A stretch of DNA of 64,000 nt, taken from Bosea sp. 685 (lineage in GTDB: Bacteria > Pseudomonadota > Alphaproteobacteria > Rhizobiales > Beijerinckiaceae). This document shows positions 35,804-57,468 of this stretch, one piece after another. Below the pieces are notes generated by a model that searched no databases, was not told the origin of the DNA, and saw only the letters and a list, made by a program, of their open reading frames with translations. The position numbers and the translations under genes were made by a program. Numbering within the stretch: position 1 is the first letter of the stretch; the number at the start of each line of letters is the position of its first letter. The DNA lies in the NCBI RefSeq assembly GCF_031884435.1, contig NZ_CP134779.1:4526001-4590000 (forward strand), read 5' to 3'.

Positions 35804-35842
35804 GAAGAGGACCTTCAAACCTCCTTTCAAAGGACCAGGACC

Positions 35843-37432: not shown

Positions 37433-37444
37433 GGAGCGCGCCCG

Positions 37445-38905: not shown

Positions 38906-38955
38906 GGCGCATTCCGCGCCTGGGCCGTAACAATCGAACCGGCGCTTCAAGCGCC
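38905..38955 (+). other. Two small hairpins between sheath and tube genes
   Basis: AGGCGC-N5-GCGCCT begins on the last base of the sheath stop codon (38905-38921), and GGCGCTTCAAGCGCC at 38941-38955 is a perfect palindrome around one central base. They lie in the 67-base gap before the tube gene and may set the relative amounts of sheath and tube mRNA. Confidence 0.4.
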
Positions 38956-38972
38956 CTTGAAAGGAAGCCGCG

Positions 38973-39335: not shown

Positions 39336-39778
39336 AGACCCTGACCGTAGACCTGACCGACGATGATGTGATCGTCGACGAGACCAGCAGCTCCGCCGAC
39401 GGCGCCGCCTCGACCAATGCGACGATCGGAGACGTTGTCGACGAGACCGAAGACGAAACCTCCAAGAAGGCGAAGCTGCCGGCTCGGGCGCACCGCAACG
39501 AGGACGGCTCGATCACGTTGCCCCTGCTCGGCACGGTGACGCTGACGATCAAGAACGCGGCGGGAACCCGGCAGGAGACCATCAAGGAGCTGACCTTCCA
39601 CGAGATGACCGGCCTCGACATGCGCCTGATCGCCCAGGCTTCGCCGGATATGCAGACGGTGGTGGCGCTGGCGCGTGCGACGCGCATCCCCTCGCCACGC
39701 ATGAACGTCCTCTTCGACAAGATGAAAGGACGTGACGTCACGGCTGCGGCGGCCGTGATCTCGTTTCTGCAGGAATGA
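39332..39778 (+). CDS. Tail assembly chaperone, first frame (Mu gp41-like)
   Basis: A 148-residue protein with a long acidic, low-complexity N-terminus (residues 1-50) and a conserved domain from SITLPLLGTVTLTIKNAAGTRQETIKELTFHEMTGLDMRLIA to the end. In Mu it coats the tape measure during tail assembly. Its 3' end overlaps a second open frame that completes a longer fused form by frameshifting. Confidence 0.82.
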   Translation: MKTLTVDLTDDDVIVDETSSSADGAASTNATIGDVVDETEDETSKKAKLPARAHRNEDGSITLPLLGTVTLTIKNAAGTRQETIKELTFHEMTGLDMRLIAQASPDMQTVVALARATRIPSPRMNVLFDKMKGRDVTAAAAVISFLQE

Positions 39779-39929
39779 GTGGCCGCCCGACTGGCCGCTG
39801 ATAGTCGGGGTCGTTGCCCGATACTACGGCGGTGGCTTCGACAAAGCCGAGGCTCTGACGCTCTCCGAGCTGCGCTGGCAGCACAATGTTGGTGCGGCGA
39901 TCGAAGAGCGGGCCAAACAGGATAGCTGA
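39759..39929 (+). CDS. Tail assembly chaperone extension reached by frameshift (Mu gp42-like)
   Basis: In the frame one base ahead of the chaperone gene, the stretch after 39758 is open to TGA at 39927-39929 and reads NEWPPDWPLIVGVVARYYGG, then FDKAEALTLSELRWQHNVG. It has no start codon of its own and fits the conserved second chaperone reading (ending with the RWQH pattern). It must be reached by a +1 or -2 shift between 39759 and 39778. TCG-TTT-CTG at 39761-39769 allows a Phe tRNA to slip +1 from TTT to TTC. The shift itself is inference. Confidence 0.7.
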   Translation, partial: SRFCRNEWPPDWPLIVGVVARYYGGGFDKAEALTLSELRWQHNVGAAIEERAKQDS

Positions 39930-39944
39930 CGTCTGGAGGGCGGC

Positions 39945-43483: not shown

Positions 43484-44739
43484 TGCTGTTGCTGCCGGCA
43501 GTGGATCCGACGCGCCGCGTCGTGCTCGATATCGACGGCCGCAAGCTCGACCAGTGGGTGCGCGTGGATCTCACCCATGATCTCTCCGAGTTGTCCGCGT
43601 CCTTCGAGCTGAGCTTTCGAGACGAGACGCGCTCGATCGAGACCTGGGAGTATGCCACTCCGGTCGCCGGGGAAGGCCCGCTCGACTGGGGCGCGAAATG
43701 CGAGATCTCGATCGACGGCGAGACCTGGCTGATCGGCTGGGTCGACGACGTGCTGCCCGAGGCCGGCAACATGCCCGGCACCGTCACCATCATCGGCCGC
43801 GATATCACCGGCGACCTGGTCGACTGCCCACCCGACCCGCGCGGCAAGCACGAATACCGCGACATCAGCCTGACCGAGTTCGCCGAGAAGCTCTGCAAGC
43901 CCTTCGGCATCAAGGTTCGTGCCGATGTCGATGTCGGACCAAAATTCGACAAATGCGTCGTCGAGGCCGGCGAGACGGTGCTCTCGGCCATCGCCAAATA
44001 TGCCAAGCAGCGCGGCGTCCTGGTCACCACCGACCGCGTCGGTACGCTCGTCATCACCAGATCCGGCCAGGAGCGCGCCGCCGACGATATCGCCTTCCCC
44101 GGCAACGTCACGCGCTCACGCGGCTCCTTTTCGGCCCGCGAGCGCTTCAGCGACTATTTCGTCAAAGGCCAGTCCGAGAAGAACGGCGGCAAACGCGCCA
44201 AGACGGCGGCGCTCGACGCCACAGCCGACCCTCTCGATGCAGCCCCCACTCAGCCGGCGCCGGCGACCGACGCGCCCGAGGACGTCGCCGAAGGCGCCGG
44301 GGCGCTCGTCATGGGTCACGCCCAAGACAAGGAGGTGACGCGCTGGAGGCCGCACATCTCGATGGCCCGGACCAAGGCCAACGCCTTCGACGCCCAGCGC
44401 CAGGCGGAATGGGAGATGCGCACCCGCCGAGGCAAGGGCGACAAGGAGGATTACGTCTATCGCGGTTTCCGCGCGGGGACCGCCAACCAGCTCTGGAAGC
44501 CGAACACGCTTGCGATGGTCAACGACCGCTTTGCCCGGCTCGATCGCGACATGCTGCTGGCCGGCGTGCGGGTCTCCTACAGCCAGCGCGGCGAGGAAAC
44601 CCGACTGCGCATCACCGGGCCTGAAGCCTATGATTTGCTCCCAGAGGCCGATCGCCGCGCCAAGAAAAGCAGCGGCAAGACGAAGGCCTCGGCCAGCACG
44701 AGCGCGGGCAAGCTCGACGGCACCGCGAGGCCTCTCTGA
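43483..44739 (+). CDS. Baseplate hub protein (Mu gpP-like)
   Basis: A 418-residue contractile-tail hub protein. LDIDGRKLDQWVRVDLTHDLSELSASFELSF at the start and the middle ISLTEFAEKLCKPFGIKVRADVDVG with a LysM-like part are typical of gpP/gpD hub proteins. It overlaps the spike gene by a TGATG. Confidence 0.87.
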   Translation: MLLLPAVDPTRRVVLDIDGRKLDQWVRVDLTHDLSELSASFELSFRDETRSIETWEYATPVAGEGPLDWGAKCEISIDGETWLIGWVDDVLPEAGNMPGTVTIIGRDITGDLVDCPPDPRGKHEYRDISLTEFAEKLCKPFGIKVRADVDVGPKFDKCVVEAGETVLSAIAKYAKQRGVLVTTDRVGTLVITRSGQERAADDIAFPGNVTRSRGSFSARERFSDYFVKGQSEKNGGKRAKTAALDATADPLDAAPTQPAPATDAPEDVAEGAGALVMGHAQDKEVTRWRPHISMARTKANAFDAQRQAEWEMRTRRGKGDKEDYVYRGFRAGTANQLWKPNTLAMVNDRFARLDRDMLLAGVRVSYSQRGEETRLRITGPEAYDLLPEADRRAKKSSGKTKASASTSAGKLDGTARPL

Positions 44740-45305
44740 TGAGTGATCCCGAAACCGCCCACGCCTATCGCGGCATCGTGGCCCGCAGCGTCGTCAGGTC
44801 GACCAATGATGCCGGCGGCAGCCAGACCGCCTCGGTCACCACGCATCGCCATGTCGATCGTACGGATGTCGAGATCATCCAGACCTTCGGATTCGCCTCG
44901 CGGTCACCGGACGGTGGTTCGATGATCGTGCTGGCGGTGGGCGGCGACCAGGGCGACCTGGCCGGGCTGCCGATCGCCGCGCCTGGCGCGCGCCTCGGCA
45001 ATCTCAAAAAGGGCGAGAGCGCCCAGCACAACGCCAAGGGCGACCGCGTCCACATCAAGGACGACGGCTCGATCGAGGCGACCTCGACGAAGCGAGTGAA
45101 GTCCAAGGTCAAGACCGTCACCTGCGAGGTGACCGAGGATCGCATCGTCGGCGCGATCGGGACGGGGATAGCTGCGCCGCGTGTCGTGGTGCGGCCGGAC
45201 TTCGTGAAGCTCCGCCTTGGCAACCACTGGCTGGTAGTCAAGGCTGACGGAATCTATTGTTCAGTCGCTCCCGTTGTGGGTGCAGATCCGGAGCCGGCCG
45301 TCTAA
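44739..45305 (+). CDS. Baseplate spike/gpV-like protein (Mu gp45)
   Basis: A 188-residue protein of the Mu gp45 family: VTTHRHVDRTDVEIIQTFGFASRSPDGGSMIVLAVGGDQGD (OB-fold, about 30-72) and a C-terminal repeat of short strands (RVHIKDDGSIEATSTKRVKSKVKTVTCEVTED) that forms the trimeric beta-helical spike. Nine bases after its stop an accessory gene begins. Confidence 0.88.
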   Translation: MSDPETAHAYRGIVARSVVRSTNDAGGSQTASVTTHRHVDRTDVEIIQTFGFASRSPDGGSMIVLAVGGDQGDLAGLPIAAPGARLGNLKKGESAQHNAKGDRVHIKDDGSIEATSTKRVKSKVKTVTCEVTEDRIVGAIGTGIAAPRVVVRPDFVKLRLGNHWLVVKADGIYCSVAPVVGADPEPAV

Positions 45306-45314
45306 GCCGCGATT

Positions 45315-46166
45315 ATGATGCGCGAACCGAAAGAACTGTCGGCTTTGGCCGAGCTTCTCGAACGGACGAAGCAATCTCACGCTGCTCTGGAACACCACTT
45401 CAAACTCAATTTCCCTGACTACACGATCCATCATCGCAAGTTGCTTGACCAGGTGGCGCCGCCATCGCTCAGCGCTTGGAATTTGCCGTCGGCGAAGGAA
45501 TGGGAAGGCCTTACGGCCAACATTTTTCGCAACCTGCAGTCTGTCCTCGAACACCCGACACCGGCACAGCGCGTTATCGCGGCGGGGTTCCTGCCTCACA
45601 GTACAACGCCTGACCTCCCCGAGGGTGACGAATCGACGGTTCGCGACTTCCTTGAGCAGCACTACCGGGACAATTGGCCGGCGGTGCTTGCCGTTTTCGA
45701 AGCTTCAGTCGACGGCTTTCTTCTCGATGAGGAGACCCGTGCAGTGTTCCGCGAGGCACTGGCGACACATGGAGCGGGTCTTTATCGGGCGACCGTGCGT
45801 ACTTTGCTTCCCGAAATCGAGCGCGTGGCACGTCGTCAGTTTGGCATGCCTACCGGGGGGCAGCCTATCCCATCACTCAGAGCGCTATTCCGAGCCATGC
45901 CTCTTTCTGCGTTCGGCGGCATGCGCAACGGGCGCGCTCGCATTATGACGACCTTTCTGAGGCACGTCTGGAAGGAGATATGGACGATCGAGGACCTCGA
46001 GGTAGTTCAGCCTGATGCCGTGCCTAACCGGTCGGCGAGCCTCCACGGGCTCACGTCTTACTCCAGCTTCCAAAACAGCCTGAACACGCTTTTCGTCGTC
46101 GAGTGTGTCTTTGCCATGCTGTCGATTCACCGCAGCCAAACGTTAACGGCCCCTGTCGTCGGCTAG
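45315..46166 (+). CDS. Accessory protein inside the baseplate operon, HEPN-like R-x4-H motif
   Basis: A 283-residue protein with no role in known baseplates, placed between gp45 and gp46, which are neighbours in Mu. GC content is lower than in the genes on both sides. Near the C-terminus, VPNRSASLHGLTSYSSFQNSLNTLFVVECVFAML holds Arg239 and His244 in R-x4-H spacing followed by Gly, as in HEPN ribonuclease domains. The N-terminal half is helical. It is probably an imported moron; whether it uses late transcription or its own promoter is unclear. Confidence 0.72.
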   Translation: MMREPKELSALAELLERTKQSHAALEHHFKLNFPDYTIHHRKLLDQVAPPSLSAWNLPSAKEWEGLTANIFRNLQSVLEHPTPAQRVIAAGFLPHSTTPDLPEGDESTVRDFLEQHYRDNWPAVLAVFEASVDGFLLDEETRAVFREALATHGAGLYRATVRTLLPEIERVARRQFGMPTGGQPIPSLRALFRAMPLSAFGGMRNGRARIMTTFLRHVWKEIWTIEDLEVVQPDAVPNRSASLHGLTSYSSFQNSLNTLFVVECVFAMLSIHRSQTLTAPVVG

Positions 46167-46170
46167 ATTA

Positions 46171-46190
46171 ACGCCCCTCCCGGGGGGCGT
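46171..46190 (+). repeat. Repeated hairpin, copy 3 (before gp46)
   Basis: ACGCCCC-N6-GGGGCGT, perfect 7-bp stem with a six-base loop, four bases after the accessory gene's stop and 35 bases before gp46. It is followed by GCC like the other copies. The accessory gene lies between gp45 and this hairpin. Confidence 0.7.
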
Positions 46191-46225
46191 GCCCCGGGCC
46201 GCGCGCGCGCGACATTGTCGCGCCC

Positions 46226-46690
46226 ATGCCCGCCTTCCTCGACGCCGCCCTAATCTTCGATCCGGAAACGCGCCGCGCCGATCTCCAGCTCGGCGAGGAT
46301 GGCGATATCGTGCTCGACGAGACGCCAGCAACGCCGATGCTGATATCGCTCGGCACCGATCGCCGAGCCGAGCCCGATGATGAATTGCCCGATGGCGTCG
46401 ACGCGCTCAACGCCTCGACCAGCTTCGTCGCCCGCCGTGGCTGGATCGGCGACGCGCTCGATGCGCTCGGCCGCAAGATCGGCTCGCGTATCTGGCTGCT
46501 CAATAGAGCCAAGCAAACCGAAACCACCCGCCGCTTCGTCGAGATCTGGGCGGCCGAGGCACTCGCCTGGGTCCAGGACGAAACCGGTAAGGCAGCCGAG
46601 ATCTCGGCAGAGTGGATCGCCCGCAACACGCTGAAGCTGCGTTGCTTGGTCGACGGCACCGTCGTCGAACTGAAGCGGAGGGTCGGCTGA
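46226..46690 (+). CDS. Baseplate protein gp46-like (gpW family)
   Basis: A 154-residue protein: FLDAALIFDPETRRADLQLGEDGDIVLDETPATPMLISLGTDRRA (1-50), then FVARRGWIGDALDALGRKIGSRIWLL. This is the Mu gp46 pattern. It forms the baseplate wedge with gp47 and gp48. The stop overlaps the gp47 start. Confidence 0.87.
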   Translation: MPAFLDAALIFDPETRRADLQLGEDGDIVLDETPATPMLISLGTDRRAEPDDELPDGVDALNASTSFVARRGWIGDALDALGRKIGSRIWLLNRAKQTETTRRFVEIWAAEALAWVQDETGKAAEISAEWIARNTLKLRCLVDGTVVELKRRVG

Positions 46691-47811
46691 TGCCCTTTCC
46701 GCTGCCGACGCCCGACGAGATCGCCCGCGCCCAGGAAGCCGAGATGGAGGCGGCACTGCGGGCGGTGCGGCCGGAGGCGAGCACCCTCGCCATCGCTCGC
46801 GCGGTGCGCTCCGAGAAGGGCCTCGTCGCCGCCCATGTCCGCACCGACGCACTCGGCCTCTACGAGACCCATCTGCATCTGCGCTGGTGGGGTGATCAAT
46901 ACATGCCCGACACCGCCGAGCTGGAGGCATTGATCCGCCACTCCTCGATCTGGGGGGTGTTCCAGCGGCCAGCGACCAAGGCGGTTGGCTATGCCCAGGT
47001 AACCGGCCTTGCCGGCACCGTCGTCCCGATCGGCTTGCAGCTGCGTACGCCCGGCGGCGTGTTGGTGGAAACGCTGACCGCAGTCGTCTTGGACGGTACC
47101 GGCGTGGGCACGCTCTCGCTCCAGGCCACCGAGGGAGGTGCCGCAGCTAACACAGCCGCTGGCGCCGTGCTGCCCGTGGTGACGGTACTGGTCGGGCTCG
47201 ATCCGCAGAGCGCCACGCTCGACGATGGCGGCCTCGCCGGTGGAGCCGCCGAAGAGACGCCCGGCTCGCTGCTCGCCCGCCTGCTCCAGGTCATCCGCGA
47301 GCCCGGCCATGGCGGCGCCGATTTCGACTACCCGAAATGGGTCCAGGACAGCTTCGCGGCGATGAAGGTCAAGACCGTGCCGAACTGGGTCGGAGCCGGC
47401 AGCGTCGGCGTCGTCGTCGCGATGGTCGAGCCCAATGACGATGAGAACGCACCGCCTGAGCCGCGCGTCCCTTCGGGGGCTGAGATTGATGCCATTTACG
47501 CCCATCTGGAGACGCTGCGCCCGGTCACGGCCGAGCTTTACGTCCTGGCCTATATCCCGCTGGTCCAGGCCTTCAGCGTCAAGCTGACGCCGGACACGGC
47601 GGCCAACCGCGCCGCCGTAACCGCTGCGCTCGCTGACCATTTCGCCCGCGAATCCGAGATCGGCGGCACGATGCCGCATTCGCGTCTGTCGGAGGCGATC
47701 TCGGCCGCCAATGGCGAGTATTCGCATGAGCTGCCCGTGCCGGCCGGTGACATCGTCTGTGCTCCGCGCGAGCTGGCAGAGCCCGGCGCAATCACCTGGG
47801 TGCCGGCATGA
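46690..47811 (+). CDS. Baseplate J-like protein (Mu gp47)
   Basis: A 373-residue wedge protein. LPTPDEIARAQEAEMEAAL opens it, and QVIREPGHGGADFDYPKWV then VEPNDDEN are typical of the baseplate J/gp47 family. ATG 46690 is chosen because it overlaps the gp46 stop (TGATG). Confidence 0.9.
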   Translation: MPFPLPTPDEIARAQEAEMEAALRAVRPEASTLAIARAVRSEKGLVAAHVRTDALGLYETHLHLRWWGDQYMPDTAELEALIRHSSIWGVFQRPATKAVGYAQVTGLAGTVVPIGLQLRTPGGVLVETLTAVVLDGTGVGTLSLQATEGGAAANTAAGAVLPVVTVLVGLDPQSATLDDGGLAGGAAEETPGSLLARLLQVIREPGHGGADFDYPKWVQDSFAAMKVKTVPNWVGAGSVGVVVAMVEPNDDENAPPEPRVPSGAEIDAIYAHLETLRPVTAELYVLAYIPLVQAFSVKLTPDTAANRAAVTAALADHFARESEIGGTMPHSRLSEAISAANGEYSHELPVPAGDIVCAPRELAEPGAITWVPA

Positions 47812-48410
47812 GCCGCACGCCCGACCAGGTCCAGGACGGCATCGTCGCGCTGGCGCCGCGCGGCTGGGTCTGGCCGCATGTCGCCGACAACGCCGACGAA
47901 AGCTTGTTCGAGGCATTGTTCCGCCCGCTCGCCAAGGGCCTCGCCGACATCGAGGCGACGGCCGAGGCGATGCTGGAGGAGATCGATCCTCGCACCGCGA
48001 CACTGCTACTACCCGACTTCGAGCGCGTGCTCGGTCCTGATCCTTGCGGTCGCGATCCTTCGACCATGTCCCTGGAGCAGCGCAGGCAGCTAGCGCATCA
48101 GCGCTGGACCGCGCGTGGCGGCGCTTCGCGCGCCTATTTCATCGCGCTCGCCGCCAAGCGCGGCGTCACCATCACGATCTTTGAGAACCGGGTCTCAATG
48201 GCCGACGCGGCCGTCGCCGGCGACGAACTTATTGAAAGCCCCGAGCAGTTCGTTTGGACCGTCAATCTGGCCTTGCTGGGAGAAACCATCGCCAAGGTCG
48301 ACGACGCCCAATGTGGCGATCTGCTGCTCGACATCATCTTGTCCGACGTCGAATGCGATATCCGGAGGGCGAAACCCGCCCATACCGAAGTCGCCTTCAA
48401 CTACATTTGA
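47808..48410 (+). CDS. Baseplate/tail protein gp48-like (DUF2313)
   Basis: A 200-residue protein: LAPRGWVWPHVADNADESLFEALFRPLAKGLADIEATAEAMLEEIDPRTATLLLPDFERVLGPDPCG is the DUF2313/YmfQ pattern. It lies between gp47 and the fibre, as in Mu. It links the baseplate to fibres. Confidence 0.88.
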   Translation: MSRTPDQVQDGIVALAPRGWVWPHVADNADESLFEALFRPLAKGLADIEATAEAMLEEIDPRTATLLLPDFERVLGPDPCGRDPSTMSLEQRRQLAHQRWTARGGASRAYFIALAAKRGVTITIFENRVSMADAAVAGDELIESPEQFVWTVNLALLGETIAKVDDAQCGDLLLDIILSDVECDIRRAKPAHTEVAFNYI

Positions 48411-48419
48411 GGCGAACCC

Positions 48420-49589
48420 ATGGACCGCATTCTCGGCGCCAATACGATCGACCTGGGTGGAGGTCGGCGCGGGTTCAGGGGCAAGGATACTGTCGCCGGC
48501 GTCCCTGGAACCGAACTGACGGCTGTTTGGCATAATGCCGTCCAGGAAGAGATCGTCCAGGCGGTCGAGGCCGCCGGGCTGGTGGCGAGTTCTGCAGACC
48601 TGAAGCAGCTGCTTCGGACCATTCAGATCTTCGGTGGCTTGCCCTGCACGGCGGGCGGCACAGCTAATGCCTTGACGATCACGCTCACGCCAGCACGAGC
48701 GTCTTGGGCCGAGCTGATCAACGTGCCGTTGCGGATCTTGATCACGGCAACGAATACCGCAGCTGCGGTCCTCGGCGTCACGGGCCTGGCCGGGACGAAG
48801 CCGTTCGTCACCCGATCGGGTGCTGCCGCGGCCCCCGGCGACCTGCTTATCGGCAGTATTGCCCTCGCCATTTACGATGGGACAAACGTTCAGATCCTTG
48901 GGCTGTCCCCCTCGAACCTCCTCGGGGTACCGGCCAAGGGTTCGTTGCTCAACATTCAGATTTTCAAGGTTGCCGGGTCTTTCACCTACACGCCGACTGC
49001 TGGAACGAAATGGATATCGGTACAGGGCGCGGGCGCGGGCGCAGCCGGTGGAGGCAGTCAGAACACGGGCGGCGCCGGCGTGTCAGCCGGCGGTGGTGGA
49101 TCGAGCGGTGCGGTAGGCACCAAAGTTGTCACCGCCGGCGTAGTCGCAACTGCGGTAACCATCGGTGCAGCGGGCGTGGGCTCGCTGGGGTCCGTCGGGG
49201 GGAACGGCGGCGCTACGTCGTTCGGCGCGCTCCTCACCTTACCTGGCGGCGTTGGCGGCAACGCAGGTGCGCTCACAGCGAGCATAGCAGTTTCAGGCGC
49301 AGTCAGTGTGAGCGGGTCGCCTGTCGGGGCGGATTATGGCTCAAGCGGCGGTGGGGCATCACCGGGTCTCAATCTGTCGTCGACCTCGGCCATCAGCGGC
49401 AACGGCGGCTCATCGCCTTTCGGCAGCGGCGGCGGCGGCACCGGGGCAAATGGCACCTACGGCAGTAACGGCGGCAATGCTGGTGGCAACGGCGCTGGCG
49501 GTGGCGGCGGTGTCGGTATCAATGCCGGCGCCACCCTAGGAGGCCCCGGCACCCCCGGCATTCTCATCATCCACGAATACGCAGGATAA
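48420..49589 (+). CDS. Glycine-rich tail fibre/adhesin-like protein
   Basis: A 389-residue protein. The N-terminal 180 residues attach to the tail (GTELTAVWHNAVQEEIVQAVEAAGL is common in fibres). From about residue 200 to the end it is glycine-, serine- and alanine-rich (GAGAGAAGGGSQNTGG and similar) and closes with GTPGILIIHEYAG, a common end of such receptor-binding tips. A glycine-rich, polyglycine-helix-like tip is known in some phage adhesins; that fold here is inference. Confidence 0.75.
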   Translation: MDRILGANTIDLGGGRRGFRGKDTVAGVPGTELTAVWHNAVQEEIVQAVEAAGLVASSADLKQLLRTIQIFGGLPCTAGGTANALTITLTPARASWAELINVPLRILITATNTAAAVLGVTGLAGTKPFVTRSGAAAAPGDLLIGSIALAIYDGTNVQILGLSPSNLLGVPAKGSLLNIQIFKVAGSFTYTPTAGTKWISVQGAGAGAAGGGSQNTGGAGVSAGGGGSSGAVGTKVVTAGVVATAVTIGAAGVGSLGSVGGNGGATSFGALLTLPGGVGGNAGALTASIAVSGAVSVSGSPVGADYGSSGGGASPGLNLSSTSAISGNGGSSPFGSGGGGTGANGTYGSNGGNAGGNGAGGGGGVGINAGATLGGPGTPGILIIHEYAG

Positions 49590-49593
49590 CGAC

Positions 49594-50124
49594 ATGACCC
49601 GATATGCTCACATCCAGGATGGTGTCGTTATCGAGGTGATTGCCGACGACGCCGGGGTTGCCATAGAGGATCGGTTTCATCCGGACTTCGTCGAGGCTTT
49701 GGTTTCCTGCGGCGATGATGTCCTGCAGGGCTGGCTCTACGACGGCAATTCGTTCAGCGCGCCCGCGCCGGCACCGCCACCCAGTAAAGCCGATCTGACT
49801 GCCTATGCCGCTGACCTGCGCTGGCGCAAGGAGGTGGGCGGCATCACCGTCGCTGATGTCCCCGTCGCGACTGACGATCGTAGCAAGATCATGATCATGG
49901 GCGCGCGAGTCGCGGCGATGGTCGATCCCAGCTGGTCGACGACCTGGCATGGAGCCGACGGAGCGACATATCCGCTCGGCGCCACGGCCATCATCGCAAT
50001 CAGCGATGCCGTGCAGATCCATGTCAATACGGGCTTCGCGACCTTCGCGGGCGTCAAGGCCGATATCGAAGCGGGCGAGATCACGACGACAGTCGAGATC
50101 GATGAGGCCTTCGCGGCCGCCTGA
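49594..50124 (+). CDS. Tail fibre-associated protein, DUF4376-like
   Basis: A 176-residue protein. ADLTAYAADLRWRKEVGGITVADVPVATDDRSKIMIMGARVAAM at about 68-111 is the DUF4376 pattern found at the ends of tail-fibre and fibre-assembly proteins. It starts 4 bases after the fibre gene and is the last structural gene. Confidence 0.75.
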   Translation: MTRYAHIQDGVVIEVIADDAGVAIEDRFHPDFVEALVSCGDDVLQGWLYDGNSFSAPAPAPPPSKADLTAYAADLRWRKEVGGITVADVPVATDDRSKIMIMGARVAAMVDPSWSTTWHGADGATYPLGATAIIAISDAVQIHVNTGFATFAGVKADIEAGEITTTVEIDEAFAAA

Positions 50125-50150
50125 TCTGCGGCCGATGGTGACGTGACAGG

Positions 50151-50166
50151 GGAGCCCAAGGGCTCC
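50151..50166 (+). terminator. Hairpin after the structural genes
   Basis: GGAGCCC-AA-GGGCTCC, a perfect 7-bp stem, 27 bases after the last structural gene and before the dam gene. There is no T-run. It marks a boundary between the late genes and the right-end accessory block, where Mu has its mom promoter. Confidence 0.45.
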
Positions 50167-50275
50167 GGCGGCTCAACTTGCAGGGAGCGCCGCCCGACGA
50201 GGTCAAGATCACATCGCCCGTCACGGCGGCCGAGGCCGCGCCAGACGGGACGACGATTCTGGACATCCGCACAAG

Positions 50276-51064
50276 ATGGAATCTGTTCAACCGATCTCCC
50301 CCGTCGCCGGCTATGTCGGCGGCAAGAAGCAGCTCGCCCGCACGCTCGTCGAGCGGATCGGCGCAATCGACCACCAGATCTATGCAGAGGCTTTCGTCGG
50401 CATGGGGGGCGTCTTCCTGCGGCGGGAGACCCGGCCCAAGGTCGAGGTGATCAACGACGCCTCGCGCGATATCGCGACCTTCTTCCGCATTCTCCAGCAT
50501 CACTACCAGGCCTTCCTGGACATGCTGAAATGGCAGCTCACGAGCCGGGCGCAATTCCAGCTCCTGGTCCAGCAGGATCCGGACACACTCACAGACCTGC
50601 ATAGGGCCGCGCGCTTCCTCTATCTGCAGCGGCTGAGCTTCGGCGGGAAGGTCGCCAGCCGGTCATTCGGCATCGACACGGGCGGCCCTGGCCGATTCGA
50701 CGTGACGCGCCTAGTTCCACTGCTAGAGGCCGTGCATGAGCGGCTTTCGGGCGTGTGGATCGAGTGCCTGGGTTGGCAGGCCTTCATCGAGCGCTGGGAC
50801 CGGCCGGGCACGCTATTCTATCTGGACCCGCCCTATTGGGGCACGGAGCACTACTACGGGAAGGGGATGTTCACCCGATCCGAGTTCGAGCTGTTGAGCG
50901 GCGCTTTACAACGGCTTCAAGGCCGCTTCATCCTCAGTTTGAACGACGTGCCCGAGGTGCGCGAGCTGTTCGCCTGGGCGACGATCGACACGGTCGAGCT
51001 GAGCTATCAGGCGGGCGGAGCCGCGAACACGAAGCGGGTACGGGAGGTGGTGATCACACGTTAG
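50276..51064 (+). CDS. DNA N6-adenine methylase, Dam/D12 class
   Basis: A 262-residue methyltransferase: the SAM loop GYVGGKKQL (13-20) and the catalytic DPPY at 184-187 are in the alpha-class order. The recognised sequence is not predictable. Its place between fibres and right end is that of the mom modification gene in Mu, so it probably protects phage DNA from restriction. A second prophage remnant carries the last 45 codons of a related gene at 56062-56206. Confidence 0.9.
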   Translation: MESVQPISPVAGYVGGKKQLARTLVERIGAIDHQIYAEAFVGMGGVFLRRETRPKVEVINDASRDIATFFRILQHHYQAFLDMLKWQLTSRAQFQLLVQQDPDTLTDLHRAARFLYLQRLSFGGKVASRSFGIDTGGPGRFDVTRLVPLLEAVHERLSGVWIECLGWQAFIERWDRPGTLFYLDPPYWGTEHYYGKGMFTRSEFELLSGALQRLQGRFILSLNDVPEVRELFAWATIDTVELSYQAGGAANTKRVREVVITR

Positions 51065-51076
51065 GATGGCTGTGCC

Positions 51077-51859
51077 GTGGACCTCGACTTTTCAGGCTCA
51101 TACCAGAGGCTCGATCGCGCTCGTCATCATATTGATGACCTAGACCGTGCCTTTAGAGACTACACGGCCCGCGATCCCGTCGTCCGAACGGCGTGGCGAG
51201 ACATGAACGACACTCGCTACATGAAAGTTGAAACGATCCTCAGAGAGGCGCCGGTCGAAGATTTCCATGTGATCAGCGGAGACGCAGTTCACAACATCAG
51301 GGTGTCGTTAGATTTGCTCGCCAATTCGCTCTTTCGAAGGGCCGGCGGTCAAATCCGGAAGCCAGATGGCAAGTACGAACAGCTGGCCTTTCCGTTTTCA
51401 AAAAGCCAGGACACGCTCGGCGAGCAAATCAAGAAGTCAAAATTTCACAAGGCCGGACCAGCGGCGGTGCAGCTCTTGAAGCAGCTCGCGCCATATCCCG
51501 GCGGGAATGAGCGCCTCGCTTGGCTGCATGAACTGGATATCGTGCACAAGCATCGTATGCTCGCTCCCGTGTTGGCTCACTTAAAGGCCCCCACCGGAGC
51601 TATCGCGCTACCTCTATCGCGAGACACCAGGCCCAGTTCGCTCATGAGTGGGACATACTTGATCAGTCGCGAGATCCCCGGCTCAGACGCCACCGGAGAT
51701 AATTTGCCGGTTTCGATCGGCTTCATGTTCCCACCCATGGGGCCATTCGATAGTCAGCCCGTGATCGCCGCGCTGAGAGATCTCCATAGTTATGTGCTCG
51801 GTGTAGTCCAACAATTTGCCGAGCTACCCAACGACGGGACTGTGCCAAGCGTGGGCTGA
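51077..51859 (+). CDS. Right-end accessory protein of unknown function
   Basis: A 260-residue protein from GTG 51077, 12 bases after dam. FHVISGDAVHNIRVSLDLLANSLFRRAGG (about 63-91) is a pattern I recognise from uncharacterised bacterial proteins, with His-Asn-x-Arg in a helix, perhaps HEPN-related, but without a clean R-x4-H. HELDIVHKHRMLAP (about 150) is a second His-rich helix. GC is below the structural genes. It belongs to the variable block between dam and the phage end. Confidence 0.65.
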   Translation: MDLDFSGSYQRLDRARHHIDDLDRAFRDYTARDPVVRTAWRDMNDTRYMKVETILREAPVEDFHVISGDAVHNIRVSLDLLANSLFRRAGGQIRKPDGKYEQLAFPFSKSQDTLGEQIKKSKFHKAGPAAVQLLKQLAPYPGGNERLAWLHELDIVHKHRMLAPVLAHLKAPTGAIALPLSRDTRPSSLMSGTYLISREIPGSDATGDNLPVSIGFMFPPMGPFDSQPVIAALRDLHSYVLGVVQQFAELPNDGTVPSVG

Positions 51860-51890
51860 CTGTCATTTCGAACGACATTAGCGGAGGGCA

Positions 51891-52124
51891 ATGATGCGTG
51901 TGAACGGAAACCCGAGAAGGAAACACAGCGTCACCCGCATCAGCGGCGGCACGCGCATCGAGATCGAACAACCCGGCGACCCCGGTCTTTGGCGTGTCGA
52001 TCTGACCGTCAAGCGGATAGGTGATGCCGTTGATCTGCGGATTTTCGACAGTCTCGTCGTCGAACTCACACCGCAAGAGGCGCGCGATCTCGCCCAGGCG
52101 CTCGGTCAGGTCGCGGACGGCTAG
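51891..52124 (+). CDS. Small right-end accessory protein
   Basis: Seventy-seven residues from ATG 51891 with GGAGGG directly upstream (ATG 51894 also possible). It is basic at the N-terminus (NGNPRRKHSVTRISGGTRIEIEQPGD), then strand-rich, ending ELTPQEARDLAQALGQVADG. No family is recognised. It lies 31 bases after the preceding gene and 29 before the SRAP gene. Confidence 0.6.
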   Translation: MMRVNGNPRRKHSVTRISGGTRIEIEQPGDPGLWRVDLTVKRIGDAVDLRIFDSLVVELTPQEARDLAQALGQVADG

Positions 52125-52153
52125 GTACGAGACCAACAGTAGGGAGCGGGATC

Positions 52154-52840
52154 ATGTGCGGGCGGTTTTCGCAGCACTACACCTGGGAGCAAGTCCACGC
52201 CTTCAGCCAGCCGCTGGCGAATGCTTTGCCTCCAGCGCAGGGCAACCTGCCGCCGCGCTATAACATCGCCCCGACGACCCACGTGCACATGATCGTGCCG
52301 ACCGAGGGCGGCCGGGAGTTGCGCAGCGCCCGCTGGTGGCTGATTCCGTCCTGGTGGAAGAAGGGCATCAAAGAGGTGCCCTCGACCTTCAATGCCCGCG
52401 TCGAGACGGTCGATACGAGCCCGATGTTTCGCGACGCCTTCAAGCGCAAGCGCTGCATCGTGCCAGCCTCGGGCTTCTTCGAGTGGACCGGCCCCAAGAC
52501 CGATCGCACACCTCACTACTTCTCGGCCGCAGATAGCGGCCTGCTAGGCATCGCGGGTCTATGGGAGAGCTGGAAAAGCCCCGAGGGCGAGGAGGTCACC
52601 AGTTGCACCATGGTGGTGCGTGACGCCGACGAATGGACCGCGCGTTATCACGACCGCATGCCGTCATTCCTACAGCCCGGCGATTTCGACGCCTGGCTCT
52701 CCGGCTCCGCCGGGAAGGAACTGCTGCGAAAGACGCCGCCGACGCTCCAGGAGTGGGTTGTCGACAAGCGGGTCAACAAGACGGGCCAGGGCGATGACGA
52801 CCCGGCGACGATCGCGCCTTTGAACGAGACCGTGCTTTAG
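52154..52840 (+). CDS. SRAP (HMCES/YedK) family protein, prophage copy
   Basis: A 228-residue SOS-response-associated protein that crosslinks to abasic sites in single-stranded DNA through its N-terminal cysteine. Cys2 (after Met removal), Asn80 (FNARVE), Glu110 (GFFEW) and His166 (HDRMP) are all present. One oddity: the usual RWGLIP reads RWWLIP, with Trp62 for Gly. ATG 52154 must be the start because Cys2 is catalytic. A close homologue lies in the adjacent remnant (54710-55405). Confidence 0.92.
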   Translation: MCGRFSQHYTWEQVHAFSQPLANALPPAQGNLPPRYNIAPTTHVHMIVPTEGGRELRSARWWLIPSWWKKGIKEVPSTFNARVETVDTSPMFRDAFKRKRCIVPASGFFEWTGPKTDRTPHYFSAADSGLLGIAGLWESWKSPEGEEVTSCTMVVRDADEWTARYHDRMPSFLQPGDFDAWLSGSAGKELLRKTPPTLQEWVVDKRVNKTGQGDDDPATIAPLNETVL

Positions 52841-52912
52841 AGACGTTGAAGCAAAACTTCAGGCTGCATTAAAGCCGCGTACCGCTCGTTCGAACTCGTC
52901 GGAGGACTTTCT

Positions 52913-53566
52913 GTGAACAATGCCGAGGCACCAAAGCTTCACCGAGGCGCAGATTCGGCAGAGGAGATTTATCTTGCGGTGGGCATCGCCCTCTCCTGGT
53001 GGGAGGGGTCCGAGGACACACTAATGGGTCTCTTCAAACTGCTCGTGCAGAATGACGAGCCGGTGGCTATTGACGCCTACATCAAGTCGAATCGGGCTGG
53101 TCGAGGCGCCATGCTGCGAAATGCGCTCGTACGGTACGAGCGACGCCTGGAAACGGCGAGCGCCGAGAAAATTCTGAAGGCAATGAAAGCCCTCGACAAG
53201 CTGGCGCCGACTCGAAACGAGATCGCGCACGGTCACTGCTCTCGATTTAAGCAGACTGTGAACGGCACGGTGGTGATGGAGGGGCACTACCTTCTGCCCT
53301 CGTTTAACGAGGCGGGATGGCATGAGCGTTCTCTAAGATACACCCACACGGTGGAGTCCATCACCGCCTTCCGGGCGGACGTTGGAGAGCAACATGCGAT
53401 CCTTCTCAATGCGAACATGGCAATTATCCAAGCCCGCCAAACGGCTCACTTAGGTCGAAACGTCGAGACGCAGTTGGTGTTGAGCATCGTCGATGGTGTT
53501 CGCACGGGCCGCATACCCGAGACAGACGTTCTTGCGCACTTGCAGCGGGTTCAGCCCGGTCAGTAG
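52913..53566 (+). CDS. Right-end accessory protein with HEPN-like R-x4-H motif
   Basis: A 217-residue protein from GTG 52913, with GGAGGAC upstream. LAVGIALSWWEGSEDTLMGLFKLL (about 21-44) is a helix like that in the antisense early protein, and LAPTRNEIAHGHCSRF places Arg101 and His106 in R-x4-H spacing. It is the last gene before the phage terminus, ending 18 bases before the terminal repeat. A toxin or defence role is inference from motif and place. Confidence 0.72.
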   Translation: MNNAEAPKLHRGADSAEEIYLAVGIALSWWEGSEDTLMGLFKLLVQNDEPVAIDAYIKSNRAGRGAMLRNALVRYERRLETASAEKILKAMKALDKLAPTRNEIAHGHCSRFKQTVNGTVVMEGHYLLPSFNEAGWHERSLRYTHTVESITAFRADVGEQHAILLNANMAIIQARQTAHLGRNVETQLVLSIVDGVRTGRIPETDVLAHLQRVQPGQ

Positions 53567-53584
53567 ACCGTCGCGCTAAGAATC

Positions 53585-53637
53585 AATCTGTTGCCATTTG
53601 ATCCTTCGTCCATTGCCATTTGAAACTTCGCGCTACA
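53585..53637 (+). other. Right attachment end, two direct transposase-site repeats
   Basis: Two adjacent 22-base units, TGTTGCCATTTGATCCTTCG and CATTGCCATTTGAAACTTCG with their last bases, end in GCTACA. The final CA and the repeat TTGCCATTTGA match the left end. The 53-base segment recurs inverted at 53670-53722 with two differences. Confidence 0.85.
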
Positions 53638-53642
53638 GCTGC
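53638..53642. repeat. Target-site duplication, right copy
   Basis: GCTGC directly after the terminal CA, identical to 11930-11934. Confidence 0.85.
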
Positions 53643-53669
53643 TCGTCCGGAATAACGGTCCGCTCCAAG

Positions 53670-53722
53670 TGTAGCGCAAAGTTTCAAATGGCAATGAACG
53701 AAGGATCAAATGGCAACAGATT
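53670..53722 (-). repeat. Inverted copy of the prophage right terminus
   Basis: Matches the complement of 53585-53637 at 51 of 53 positions. With the first copy it makes a 138-base palindrome with a 32-base centre. It overlaps the protease stop codon by two bases. Confidence 0.88.
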
Positions 53723-54623
53723 AGAGATTGAGCAGTTCGCTCACCTTTGATCCGGGCACTCCTGCGGACACGATGTCGTGGAGCACGTCGCGGCGCCAAA
53801 CTATTCCTATCTCGGAGATGGCGACTTCGGCCTCGGCCCTCAGGCTGGCTGAGTCCAGTGTTTCGCCGCCGATCTCCTCCTTTGGTAGTCGACCAGAATA
53901 GATCCCCGCAAAAACCTGTGCGGTCCCTTGACCACCTTCCCCGTCGGGCCCAATGGGCCCTTGCGCGAAGGCCGAAGCAATCACAGGCGCGCCCGACATT
54001 CCGCGCGCAGTTCGGCAATCAATCAAAAAGCGCGGGAGATCGAACTGTGGGAGTCCGGGTTCCGTAGCGATTGAGCCCCTCTTATATATTGGGAGCGCGG
54101 CTGTTCCGCCGGTCAGCCCCCAAGGATAGCCAAGCAGGAAAACGTCGTTGGTCACTCGGGGAACAAAGCCGGGTGTGAGGTCGAATACACCCTTATCACC
54201 GACGCACGCAAAAGCCGGTCTAGCGTCTCCAGGTGACCATTCCACTCTGAGCGCTACGACATCGGCTCGATGCCGCCATTTGGGATGCTCAAGCCAGCTA
54301 GGACTTTCGCCATCGGGGTCATTAAGCGGAAACTCGAACTGCATGATCTGCTTCGAGTTGATTGTGTCCGGCCCCAACTGAATGTGCATTCTCGCAACCA
54401 GCTTGGTGGGTACACCGGCAGAGAGACTCATGGAGGGTGCCAGTCGCGATCGGCCCGTGACGATATGCCAGTTGGTCACGAGATATAGGGGGGCGTCAGC
54501 GGCAGCTCGGAACCAGAATGCGGTGCCCGTCTCGATCACTCGCCCCGTCTCGCAGCGGGCCTCTACACGCACCGCAATCAGCGAGGTATTCTCAAACATC
54601 ATCGGAAAGAGCACTGGCGTCAT
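53721..54623 (-). CDS. Trypsin-like serine peptidase, remnant right-end cargo
   Basis: A 300-residue chymotrypsin-fold protein without a signal peptide. The triad is His53 (NWHIVTG), Asp121 (RADVVALR) and Ser210 (RGMSGAPV). Cytoplasmic trypsin-like proteins of this sort are seen in accessory islands and some phage-defence systems. The gene ends on the remnant's terminus and has lower GC than the chromosome. It appears intact. The substrate is unknown. Confidence 0.82.
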   Translation of the reverse strand: MTPVLFPMMFENTSLIAVRVEARCETGRVIETGTAFWFRAAADAPLYLVTNWHIVTGRSRLAPSMSLSAGVPTKLVARMHIQLGPDTINSKQIMQFEFPLNDPDGESPSWLEHPKWRHRADVVALRVEWSPGDARPAFACVGDKGVFDLTPGFVPRVTNDVFLLGYPWGLTGGTAALPIYKRGSIATEPGLPQFDLPRFLIDCRTARGMSGAPVIASAFAQGPIGPDGEGGQGTAQVFAGIYSGRLPKEEIGGETLDSASLRAEAEVAISEIGIVWRRDVLHDIVSAGVPGSKVSELLNL

Positions 54624-54709
54624 TTGTCGGTCCTATCCACGGGGGCTTCTGCACCCCGTTCGTCATCCGCCAGTATTAGTACGGGCTGCATCGGGGAGGT
54701 TCGTACCCT

Positions 54710-55405
54710 TCAGAGTGGGGTGTCGGGGCGCGGTAAGTCCGGCGCGATGGTAGTCGGATCATTGTCTCCCGCCCCCGTTTTATTCACCTTCTTGCCGACG
54801 ACCCACTCCTGAAGCTTCGGCGGCGTCTTGCGCAGCAGCTCCTTGCCTGCGGAGCCGGAAAGCCAGGTGTCGAAGTCGTCGGGCTGAAGGAATGACGGCA
54901 TGCGGTCGTGATAGCGCGCGGTCCACTCGTCGGCGTCGCGCACAACCATCGTGCAGCTGGTGACATCCTCGCCCGCGGGGCTCTTCCATCTCTCCCATAA
55001 ACCCGCAATGGCCAGCAGGTCGCCATCGGCGGCGGAGAAGTAGTGCGGCGTGCGATCGGTTTTGGGGCCTGTCCATTCGAAGAAGCCCGAGGCGGGGATG
55101 ACGCAGCGCCGGCTCTTATATGCGCTTTTGAAGCTGCTCTTCTGGTCAAAATCCTCGACACGCGCATTGAACGTGGCGAATTTGAACTCCTTGGGGCTGG
55201 CCCCTTTGAACCAAAAGGGAATTAAACCCCAGCGAGCACTACGCAGCTCGCGGCCACCCTCGGCTGGGACGATCATGTGGATGTTGGTCGTCGGCGCGAT
55301 ATTGTAGTGCGGCTGGAGATTGCCCTGGCCGGTGGCCAGCGTCAGTGGTTGGCTGAAGGCCTGGATTTGTTCCCAGGTGTAGTGCTGCGAAAACCGCCCG
55401 CACAT
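54710..55405 (-). CDS. SRAP (HMCES/YedK) family protein, remnant copy
   Basis: A 231-residue protein from ATG 55405, the only start that gives the catalytic Cys2. It keeps FNARVE, GFFEW and HDRMP, and has the normal RWGLIP where the other copy has RWWLIP. The middle and C-terminal halves are nearly identical to 52154-52840; the region around residues 68-95 differs most. The open frame extends 26 codons upstream, which I do not count as gene. Confidence 0.92.
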   Translation of the reverse strand: MCGRFSQHYTWEQIQAFSQPLTLATGQGNLQPHYNIAPTTNIHMIVPAEGGRELRSARWGLIPFWFKGASPKEFKFATFNARVEDFDQKSSFKSAYKSRRCVIPASGFFEWTGPKTDRTPHYFSAADGDLLAIAGLWERWKSPAGEDVTSCTMVVRDADEWTARYHDRMPSFLQPDDFDTWLSGSAGKELLRKTPPKLQEWVVGKKVNKTGAGDNDPTTIAPDLPRPDTPL

Positions 55406-55413
55406 GTCGCTTC

Positions 55414-56049
55414 CTACCCGTTGACTGGCTTCACAACACCGGATCGTACGGCCTCGCGGCCTTTTTCCGCATCCGCAAGCCACTTCTCGCGTAAGGCAAC
55501 CAGACGCATGTCATTCTTGGATTTCTGCTTCTTTAGCGCGTCAGCTACCTCCGTAAGCATCTCGTTTGGAGCCAAGCGGTAACGCGTTCTAAAGCGGACT
55601 GCGAGATCCCAGGCCGCAACGCCCAAATTCACGGCTTCAAGGTGCGTCACCCAATAGTCATTGCTCGCCCAATCGGCCCTAACGGCCTCGCTCTGGGCGG
55701 CTTCGATCCGGGTTGGAAAGCCGAGCACTTCAGTGGCCAACGCGCTGTCGCAGGATCGCCAGTCGATATTGGATGGGAATTCAGCGAGCTTTGGCAAATC
55801 CCCTGCGGCAGAAATGCCTTGGATGTCGTGGGCCACGTCGCGGTTGCGGATATGAGTATCGCACGCCGAGACGTAGGCCTCCAAAATGACGGAAACTCGG
55901 ATCGCAACGTAAGTCGCATCAAATTTTCTTTTCCGATTTTCAGTGAAGGAGTCGACGCCCCACTTGATGGTTTGGTTGGCGACGGCTGCAACGACACCGC
56001 CAAAACCCGCGAGTTGCAGAATGCTTACCAGCGACAGGTCGTCCGCCAT
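55414..56049 (-). CDS. Membrane-anchored hypothetical protein, remnant right-end cargo
   Basis: A 211-residue protein. SLVSILQLAGFGGVVAAVANQTIKW (about 5-29) is a likely single membrane anchor; the rest is a helical soluble domain with ACDTHIRNRDVAHDI (about 61-75) and a lysine-rich end. I recognise no family. It lies between the Dam stub and the SRAP gene, the slot that in the main prophage holds 51077-52124. Confidence 0.65.
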   Translation of the reverse strand: MADDLSLVSILQLAGFGGVVAAVANQTIKWGVDSFTENRKRKFDATYVAIRVSVILEAYVSACDTHIRNRDVAHDIQGISAAGDLPKLAEFPSNIDWRSCDSALATEVLGFPTRIEAAQSEAVRADWASNDYWVTHLEAVNLGVAAWDLAVRFRTRYRLAPNEMLTEVADALKKQKSKNDMRLVALREKWLADAEKGREAVRSGVVKPVNG

Positions 56050-56061
56050 GTTGGTCGGCCT

Positions 56062-56206
56062 TCATCGTTTTGAGGAAATCACCACTACTCGTACTCCTTT
56101 CGTGTGCCCCGCGCCGCCTGCCTGATAGCTGGGCCCGACCGTCTGGATCGTCGCCCAGGATAACAGCTCGCGCATCTCGGCTAGGTCGCTCAACCTGAGG
56201 ATGCGG
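56062..56206 (-). pseudogene. C-terminal stub of a Dam-type methylase
   Basis: Reading from about 56206 down to TGA at 56064-56062 gives RILRLSDLAEMRELLSWATI, then QTVGPSYQAGGAGHTKGVR and VVVISSKR. The main prophage's Dam ends LSLNDVPEVRELFAWATID, then TVELSYQAGGAANTKRVREVVITR. The alignment stops abruptly near 56206, which is where the remnant meets chromosomal repeats. Confidence 0.8.
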
Positions 56207-56859
56207 CGGCACCCGCTCCTCCGCAAGTCGCGGCTCGCCTTCGTCCGCCGTCATTCCGGGCAAGCGCAGCGCCGACCCGGAATCCATCGGAGGGCGTCAT
56301 TCTCGGGCTTGCTCCACGACTGTCCGATTTGCCGCAAGCGCCCGATTGAAAAGCTCCGTTCATCGCAGGCTTTCCAGCGGGCGGTGACGGAGAGGACAAG
56401 CGCGGGGAACCCCTCTCCCGGATGGGAGAGGGGCAGGGGTGAGGGTGTGCCCTTTCAGTAGAAGGCGCTGCGGCTCCGGTGCGCCTCGATAACGAGCGGC
56501 GGGCCCTCATCCTGCCCTTCTCCCATCCGGGAGAAGGGTTCCCCGCGCCCTTCATCCAGCGCTTTGCATCACCTTCGCCCGCAATAGGAACTCCACTCAT
56601 CGGCCAAGCCCAACCATGACGCACTTCCACTCCCCGAGCGGCGCGGTTCAGGCGCCCGCGCTATCCACAAGCAAGCCCGCATTCCCTCACATTCGAGCGA
56701 TCCGCTTCACGCCATTTCAACACCCATGAACGCCCGCGGCCTGCCCGGCTTGGTTAATTTTACCTTGTTTGCGCGTTTACCTTGCGTTCATCACGCCGGG
56801 CGGGCTTTCTGATCCCACAAACGGCACGGTGATGCCGCAGGGCTGGTGAGTTCGGATAG
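56207..56859. repeat. Gene-free stretch with palindromic repeats
   Basis: No convincing gene. GTCATTCCGGGCAAGCGC at about 56250 and CCCGGAATCC at 56276 are a short form of the intergenic palindrome. CCCTCTCCCGGATGGGAGAGG near 56410 and its inverted counterpart TTCTCCCATCCGGGAGAAGG near 56520 form further hairpins. The last 250 bases have TTGTTTGCGC-type AT-richer sequence ahead of the secreted-protein gene and probably hold its promoter. Confidence 0.6.
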
Positions 56860-57468
56860 ATGCGTCAGGTTTTCGTCACTTCGGCATTCAGCGCGGTTCT
56901 GCTGCTCGGCGCCCACGCCGCCCAGGCGGCCGATTGCGCCGGCTACTCCTGCCGCCCGGCGCCCTCCTGCCGCGGTTCGGCCTGCTACAACCTCGTGCAG
57001 ACGCCGCCGGTCTACGACACGGTCAGCGAGAGCTATCTCATCCGCCCGGAGCAGACCCAGTCGCGCGTCGTCCCGGCGCAATATGATTACGTCACCGAAA
57101 CAGTGATGATCGATCCGCCCCGCCAGATCCCGCATCATCGCCCGGCGCAGTATTGGAGCGTCTCCGAGAAGGTAATGATCTCGCCCGCCAGCAAGCGCTG
57201 GGAAGTGACCCGCGACGCCTATGGCAACACCACGGGCTGCTGGGTCGAGGTTCCCGCGCAGTACGGCTACCAGCAGCGCACCGTCGAGGTCGCGCCCGCC
57301 ACCATCGATTACGAGACCATCCCCGCCGTCTACACCCAGCGTCAGCGCAAGGTGATGGTGCGGCCGACGCAGGTCCTCCATGAGACGCGGCCCGCGCAAT
57401 ACGCGACCCGCCAGCGCAGCGTTATGGTGAGCCCCGGCTCACAGCGCTGGGAGCGCGCCGGCTACTGA
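56860..57468 (+). CDS. Secreted repeat protein with PAxY...VxVxP units
   Basis: A 202-residue protein with a signal peptide cleaved after AQA at about residue 23, and paired cysteines in ADCAGYSCRPAPSCRGSACYN. The rest is six imperfect units of about 20 residues with the pattern PAxY-x6-VxVxP (TPPVYDTVSESYLIRP, VPAQYDYVTETVMIDP, RPAQYWSVSEKVMISP, and so on). It is probably periplasmic or envelope-bound. Function is not known to me. A clear terminator follows. Confidence 0.8.
   Translation: MRQVFVTSAFSAVLLLGAHAAQAADCAGYSCRPAPSCRGSACYNLVQTPPVYDTVSESYLIRPEQTQSRVVPAQYDYVTETVMIDPPRQIPHHRPAQYWSVSEKVMISPASKRWEVTRDAYGNTTGCWVEVPAQYGYQQRTVEVAPATIDYETIPAVYTQRQRKVMVRPTQVLHETRPAQYATRQRSVMVSPGSQRWERAGY

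Follow-up and report, generated by a model that had tools for sequence, protein, structure and literature searches.

A complete Mu-like prophage and a related right-end remnant at one site behind sleB in Bosea sp. 685, with the protein encoded after muB as candidate target selector

Mu inserts almost anywhere and shuns its own neighbourhood. In a stretch of 64,000 nucleotides of Bosea sp. 685 (contig NZ_CP134779.1, positions 4,526,001 to 4,590,000; called the window here, and the source of all coordinates without a prefix), the right ends of two related Mu-like phages face each other across 32 nt behind the gene of a SleB-like cell wall hydrolase (sleB), and the question is how both came to lie there. 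Our answer, to which we give a probability of roughly 0.7, is that two Mu-like phages, one a complete prophage and the other a relative reduced to its right end, share one sleB site, and that this site would be chosen by the protein encoded directly after muB, which we call the selector. Other genomes are given by G or J numbers.

The last 53 nt of the complete prophage (R, 53585-53637) and their inverted counterpart (R', 53670-53722) have 51 of 53 bases alike (96% complementary), in agreement with the two changes counted in the initial annotation. Each arm carries two copies of an 18-nt end motif, and two more copies lie near 11942-12082; the motif pattern has 6 matches in the window against 0.30 expected, a number reached by none of 100 shuffles. 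A 5-bp target duplication, GCTGC at 11930-11934 and 53638-53642, bounds the complete prophage as 11935-53637, with its left end 7 bp past the stop codon of the SleB-like gene. The prophage has a MuA-type DDE transposase, an adjoining MuB-type AAA+ ATPase and structural genes, and its ends are Mu-like in their TG...CA termini, repeated end motifs and target duplication, which is also 5 bp long in relatives. Behind R' follow leftward a protease, an SRAP protein, an uncharacterised protein and the C-terminal stub of a Dam gene, the order proposed earlier, and the SRAP regions of both phages align inverted in blocks of 78-91% DNA identity. The sequence identifies R' as the right terminus of another, related phage that is truncated.

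That this phage has lost everything upstream of its Dam gene, as the initial annotation put it, is supported, and the element is absent in the three closest relatives (G006, G051, G063), which have the empty site that had been suggested as a check. In alignment to these empty sites, host DNA extends up to 53653 and resumes at about 56276, so that 53654 to about 56275 is foreign; 56276-56860 is 83-89% identical to the three. The segment 53670-56206 is consequently not ordinary chromosome, a possibility that had been considered together with that of the palindrome being a common chromosomal repeat free of phage genes. Among the 67 Bosea genomes searched, the whole 138-bp palindrome was matched in this genome alone, and its arms in 16, the window's own genome included. 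When the complete prophage is removed, R' lies 34 bp from the sleB stop codon.

The same place is occupied repeatedly in the genus. The 67 genomes were searched with the palindrome and with sleB, 59 sequences behind sleB were read, and ends were judged by eye. Phage-type ends were present in 16 of the 59 (13 right-type, two left-type, and the window with both), three of them degenerate (G047, G049, G064). The end lies 3-16 bp from the sleB stop codon in the 16 sequences, and 27-33 nt from a pair of FY codons in 14 of them, the other two being at 37 and 40 nt. On the sleB tree the label occupied or empty changes 11 times, and at least 5 of these changes are forced by well-supported branches. 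The 16 occupied sequences are not 16 events, because part of the remnants is inherited: G009 and G049 share the junction sequence behind the Dam stub, and G048 shares sequence beyond the junction. Additionally, left ends were found behind sleB paralogs in G025 and G016. A divergent prophage in G034 (MuA 49% identical) sits at sleB between two copies of TGAAC, a duplication that includes the stop codon, and in G050 two contigs carry ACGAG, one of them at sleB and the other at a right end. Left ends were sought in 12 right-end islands of the remnants with up to 8 mismatches allowed and none was found, and exact-pattern scans for the right end in genome contigs and viral contigs found nothing. 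Taken together, sequence comparison gives good support to the insertion of both window phages at one preferred site directly 3' of sleB. The remnants at sleB in the window and in G002, G009, G012, G031, G039, G047, G048 and G049 keep only the C-terminal part of Dam, with differing breakpoints, a pattern that is partly due to common descent.

In five genomes of other genera (G152, G287, G293, G304, G233), tblastn confirmed that right-type ends lie at sleB, with the likeness in G152 limited to the terminus, and left ends at sleB were found in G128 (25 bp from the stop codon) and in G390 (7 bp), whose metagenome-assembled genome is listed with 7% contamination. The sleB-side R' of G233 is preceded by TGACG, which is the reverse complement of the 5 bp outside the left end of a MuA-bearing phage on another contig, and because of this agreement the two were taken as one phage. 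The sleB-side ends thus occur in both orientations across several genera. The end pattern had matched 22 genomes, against 11 for the reversed control pattern; nine of the 22 were dropped from the sleB count, as tblastn found no SleB in them, and so were G255 and G204, among four genomes of another pattern search. In G390, sleB sequence occurs twice (contigs C9 and C204): one sleB lacks a phage end, and the other, a fragment, has a phage left end at the corresponding position.

Insertion next to a related end, which the initial annotation had regarded as odd on account of target immunity, turned out to recur. Behind sleB in G023 the order is GCGGT, right end, phage, left end, GCGGTGT and an older right end, so that the newer phage inserted at a distance of 2 bp from an older end with apparently intact motifs; the earlier suggestion that the older end had to be inert already is therefore not needed. 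This genome also answers in part the proposed search for a strain with a leftward prophage: its leftward sleB element has both ends, but its MuA gene is cut short. In G052, a prophage with the duplication CAACG lies inside an older degenerate right end, and in G014 an older right-end stretch starts at most 10 bp outside a right end (for each, 0 of 2000 shuffles score as high). Left ends face each other at 5 bp in G233 and at 2 bp in G152, with a weak case at 7 bp in G323; the remaining left flanks tested showed no facing left ends. In 11 flanks of other insertions away from sleB no match to an old end was found, and the best score was reached in 26 of 500 shuffles. Largely unselected insertion and cis-immunity next to the ends are the usual Mu traits, and in Escherichia coli the 1.5 kb beyond either end of Mu showed no Mu insertion in the early period of induction, according to the available part of the source (PMC7350765); for the Mu-like phage Ab30, the part available gives 0.4% of insertion into phage copies (PMC5977238). 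The present family shows neither trait, since its sites are fixed and insertions are found at related ends, inside them or no more than about 12 bp away; it is filed as Mu-like by its transposase and ends, and not by random insertion or cis-immunity. Because new insertions occurred at or within about 12 bp of old related ends, cis-immunity does not guard these sites, and the immunity puzzle of the window dissolves in part, because both phages used the same preferred site behind sleB. Random Mu insertion with decayed immunity was rejected in view of the recurrent site.

Relatives of these phages use other fixed sites. Of 397 family-level genomes searched with a MuA profile, 30 contained the phage family; the left flanks of these phages were compared with each other blind to the phage genes and also scanned for tRNA genes. 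Phages lie upstream of serC in G089, G157 (where the gene was identified by NCBIfam) and, by the right end, G025, at 101, 108 and 111 nt from the serC start, in three genera and in both orientations; the right end in G025 is 45 bp before the Rfam serC leader. The serC site of G052 holds a left end, at a distance from the start codon that was estimated by eye as about 100 nt, and the first 27 nt of this end are those of the left end of the G052 phage elsewhere. Other phages are found upstream of tRNA-Phe (G287, G082) and of tRNA-Met (G259, G257), and in one selector clade tRNA genes lie 72-92 bp from the phage in 6 of 6 members. G064, G065 and the second phage of G050 are located where a small gene begins, at sites judged similar by eye, and in G064 this gene is followed by a terminase gene. 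Either the left or the right end may adjoin sleB, serC and tRNA genes, so that there is no one fixed orientation. A motif common to the sleB 3' ends and the other sites was rejected, as the match of the sleB consensus to seven other sites was equalled by 7-95 of 300 shuffles. Among order-level phages (36 stretches in 33 genomes), the left flanks gave no match to sleB, serC or the TerS probe, a weak negative as many left ends were not located; for none of the 33 in which a selector was found did the nearest neighbour belong to a labelled class, and the mutual flank comparison was clouded by phage genes. The phages of G064, G065, G050 (contig C43), G360, G144 and G799 lie within or close to genes that resemble those of a terminase or prohead protease and belong to a different phage-like cluster, which may be a gene transfer agent; the terminase of G064 was labelled by Pfam, and the other labels, given in part by eye, are putative.

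The selector open reading frame starts at 18753, where it overlaps the muB stop codon, and its product (18753-19373) matches phrog_2030, which is annotated as a transcription regulator. A structure model built from 17 sequences (mean predicted local distance difference test score 84.9, predicted template modelling score 0.58) has a helix-helix-helix-strand-strand unit twice, and we read the two units of this model as probable winged helices. The gene after B in Pseudomonas phage D3112 (orf8) is a homolog (phrog_2030 1e-80; hhalign probability 99.1).

We compared how closely each phage protein follows the insertion site. In a first set of 14 labelled phages, from which 14 others with single or unclassified sites were omitted, the nearest neighbour had the same site in 14/14 cases by the selector, 9/14 by MuB, 6/14 by the next downstream gene, 4/14 by MuA and 4/13 by ParB. 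On the corresponding trees, where the minimum is 3 site changes, the selector needs 3, ParB 6, the next gene 7 and MuA 8. When all 28 phages were used, with the unclassified ones kept as different sites, the area under the curve (AUC) for the site was 0.947 for the selector (0 of 400 shuffles as high), 0.691 for MuA, 0.626 for MuB and 0.660 for ParB; the nearest neighbour agreed in 4/14 cases for MuA, 5/14 for MuB and 2/13 for ParB. The pairs opposing the selector were mainly G323 and G152 against the tRNA group, to which their selectors assign them, and their right flanks show tRNA-Phe at 87 bp and tRNA-Met at 85 bp. After these two were relabelled, the AUC was 0.977 for the selector, 0.780 for MuA, 0.749 for MuB and 0.736 for ParB, and the nearest neighbour agreed in 15/16, 6/16, 9/16 and 5/15 cases, respectively; since the relabelling followed the test, the values before it are the unaided ones. 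Selector similarity still tracks the site with MuA or MuB regressed out (0 of 3000 shuffles), and the reverse does not hold. As an example, the phage of G390 and those of G259, G323 and G287 have 87-88% identity in MuA and 36-39% in the selector, and their sites are different. G050 was excluded from the selector tests, as a contig overlap gave an ambiguous site assignment for its two phages.

Several results weigh against the selector as the determinant of the site. For the first 14 labelled phages, the MuB tree needs no more than the same minimum of 3 changes, and the unaided nearest-neighbour agreement of the selector with unclassified phages kept is only 10/14. Because few shuffles reach their values after relabelling (1, 2 and 4 of 2000 for MuA, MuB and ParB, compared to 0 for the selector), these three proteins carry some site signal as well. 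The phage of G127, whose selector is about 60% like that of G089, was predicted at serC, a prediction recorded beforehand, and it is not at serC. G031 and J070 have sleB-clade selectors but sit elsewhere; the phage of G799 lies near a terminase gene like that of G064, with selectors only 20-25% identical; and identity between the two sleB selector clades is only 34-41%. In addition, 12 of the 28 phages are at once-seen or unclassified sites, often with only the left flank compared, the site classes were defined after looking, and the tRNA prediction was not recorded beforehand. As for the homologs, orf8 does not separate Ab30, which has hotspots, from the near-random HW12 (98.2% identical). 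In the window itself, R' at 34 bp from the stop codon is beyond the usual 3-16 bp, and the 16 spacer bases 53654-53669 match neither the empty sites nor the phage end. Overall, the role of the selector is suggested by a strong correlation in sequence data, with two of three predictions borne out.

We propose the following course of events. The phage would recognise conserved codons at the 3' end of sleB and insert about 27-33 nt beyond the FY codons, the recognition probably being done by the protein after muB through its two putative winged helices. This protein may deliver MuB and the MuA-bound ends to the site, a role like that of TnsD and TnsC in Tn7, and related phages with other versions of it would home to serC, tRNA genes or the terminase cluster. 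Because the site would be chosen by its sequence, it can be used again despite a resident related end, and the older phage would be pushed outward and decay.

Other explanations have to be weighed against this one. It is conceivable, though we consider it unlikely, that sleB is a hotspot through DNA structure, transcription or a host protein, with MuA and MuB alone explaining the clustering; Ab30 does have 42 motif-linked hotspots without orientation bias (PMC5977238, in the part available), and both MuA and MuB associate with the site in the relabelled comparison. Against this, phages with near-identical MuA in related hosts use different sites, the site tracks the protein after muB more closely, and the two tRNA placements fitted the selector. 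MuB alone as the determinant was set aside, being weaker than its neighbour gene. The ParB-like protein, considered because none was found in the stretch of phage RS1, was rejected as selector, as its similarity follows the site less well.

A single ancient insertion, kept by descent, would account for all right-type ends at sleB in Bosea, and the shared junction of G009 and G049, with the shared sequence of G048, shows that part of the remnants is inherited. As the sole cause it is very improbable, and we retain it for part of Bosea only: the site is empty in the three nearest relatives of the window, carriers are unlike each other in distance, target duplication and orientation, other genera and sleB paralogs are hit too, and the right end in G025 is 96% identical to that of the window, while its sleB DNA is only 77% identical. 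The initial annotation had also offered a duplicated phage, inverted or partly deleted, as the source of the facing ends, which are indeed similar and inverted, as is the cargo order. This is hardly credible, because the GCTGC duplication round the complete prophage is intact and the two SRAP regions show a DNA difference of about 22%.

Compared with known systems, the nearest named Mu-like phages are Rhodovulum phage RS1 and Rhodobacter phage RC1, with 36.9% identity in MuA. RS1 has the same order of MuB, a regulator gene after muB and DUF3164, and differs in that no ParB-like gene was found in its first 9 kb, whereas the window prophage has one. Tn7 inserts in one fixed orientation at its site, where its TnsD binds the end of glmS. 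The available text on Tn7 and Tn7-like elements describes a fixed site tied to a conserved gene and modular selectors TnsD, TnsF and TniQ (PMC10293859). The present phages likewise use a fixed attachment site beside a conserved gene; unlike Tn7-like elements, they have MuA and MuB in place of TnsAB and TnsC, insert in both orientations and do so repeatedly beside kin, and no TniQ/TnsD-family Pfam match was found in 13 scanned proteins of the complete prophage, the selector included. The Pseudomonas phages D3112 and Ab30 resemble them in the selector homolog after B and, for Ab30, in hotspots 54-61 bp from a REP-like motif, a fixed distance without orientation bias; they differ in that the Ab30 hotspots hold about 5% of sites, HW12 is mostly random, and the available portion of the source names no selector (PMC5977238). 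Because HW12 has a 98.2% identical protein, the link from the selector to the Ab30 hotspots is tentative. CasMu, a CRISPR-directed Mu transposon with homing according to the available text (PMC10910872), is also a Mu-type transposon that homes, but is RNA-guided, while a DNA-binding protein is proposed here. The available parts of the literature found (including PMC5977238, PMC7350765, PMC10293859, PMC11656645, PMC8705779 and PMC10910872) contain neither a protein target selector for a Mu-like phage nor a mention of sleB as a phage site.

We consider it rather probable that phrog_2030 is a swappable selector in a large Mu-like group, reaching by homology from phages of Hyphomicrobiales to the Pseudomonas D3112 group, with the sleB 3' end, the serC leader, the 5' flank of tRNA genes and the terminase cluster as sites, used in either orientation and in disregard of related ends. 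Fixed, gene-linked sites that are reused beside kin contrast with textbook Mu. If the proposal is true, a family annotated as transcription regulator would consist of natural target selectors for MuA and MuB, the positions of prophages would be predictable from one gene, and Mu-type transposition would have its own protein-guided homing, parallel to TnsD and TnsF of Tn7. The 18753-19373 protein is a named and directly testable candidate for such a selector. Table 1 lists the features of the window.

Table 1. Features of the window, with the basis of each assignment.
Feature	Position	Strand	Basis
SleB-like cell wall hydrolase gene	10575..11927	+	Pfam Hydrolase_2 8.6e-27; NCBIfam spore_SleB only below cut-off; 3' end is the attachment site
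Left target duplication GCTGC	11930..11934	.	sequence
Complete Mu-like prophage, 41.7 kb	11935..53637	+	TG...CA ends, target duplication, MuA, MuB, terminase, portal, head and tail genes
Left end, two end-motif copies in opposite directions	11935..12082	+	motif scan
Repressor	13822..14508	-	PHROG transcriptional repressor 1.8e-34
ParB-like protein	14875..15756	+	PHROG 1.3e-55
MuA-type transposase	15753..17924	+	HTH_Tnp_Mu_1, rve, Mu-transpos_C; PHROG 7.5e-97
MuB/TniB-like AAA+ ATPase	17986..18756	+	AAA_22 2.3e-15, TniB 1.8e-06
Proposed target selector, 206 aa	18753..19373	+	phrog_2030 1.2e-32; start overlaps muB stop
Dam-type methyltransferase, complete prophage	50276..51064	+	MethyltransfD12 5.4e-20
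SRAP, complete prophage	52154..52840	+	Pfam SRAP 7e-59
Right end R, complete prophage	53585..53637	+	inverted pair, motifs
32-bp spacer	53638..53669	.	target duplication 53638-53642, host 53643-53653, 16 unmatched bp 53654-53669
Right end R', truncated phage	53670..53722	-	inverted pair, motifs
Trypsin-like protease, truncated-phage cargo	53721..54623	-	Trypsin_2 2.1e-06; PADLOC PDC-S45 2.8e-19
SRAP, truncated phage	54710..55483	-	Pfam SRAP 1.4e-58
Uncharacterised cargo protein, truncated phage	55414..56049	-	PADLOC PDC-S67 4.2e-16
C-terminal Dam stub	56062..56226	-	resembles end of 50276-51064
Host intergenic DNA past truncated phage	56276..56860	+	alignment to three empty sites

A third right-type end lies in the same genome far from sleB (C2:2321318); behind it are a gene that resembles 52913-53566 by eye and, about 5 kb further, a capsid-like gene, and tblastn of the phage proteins of the window found nothing in that region. 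The intergenic repeats 56246-56319 and 56400-56548, at and beyond the right junction, recur elsewhere in the genome. The PADLOC families of two cargo proteins of the truncated phage, PDC-S45 (53721-54623) and PDC-S67 (55414-56049), are candidate defence families.

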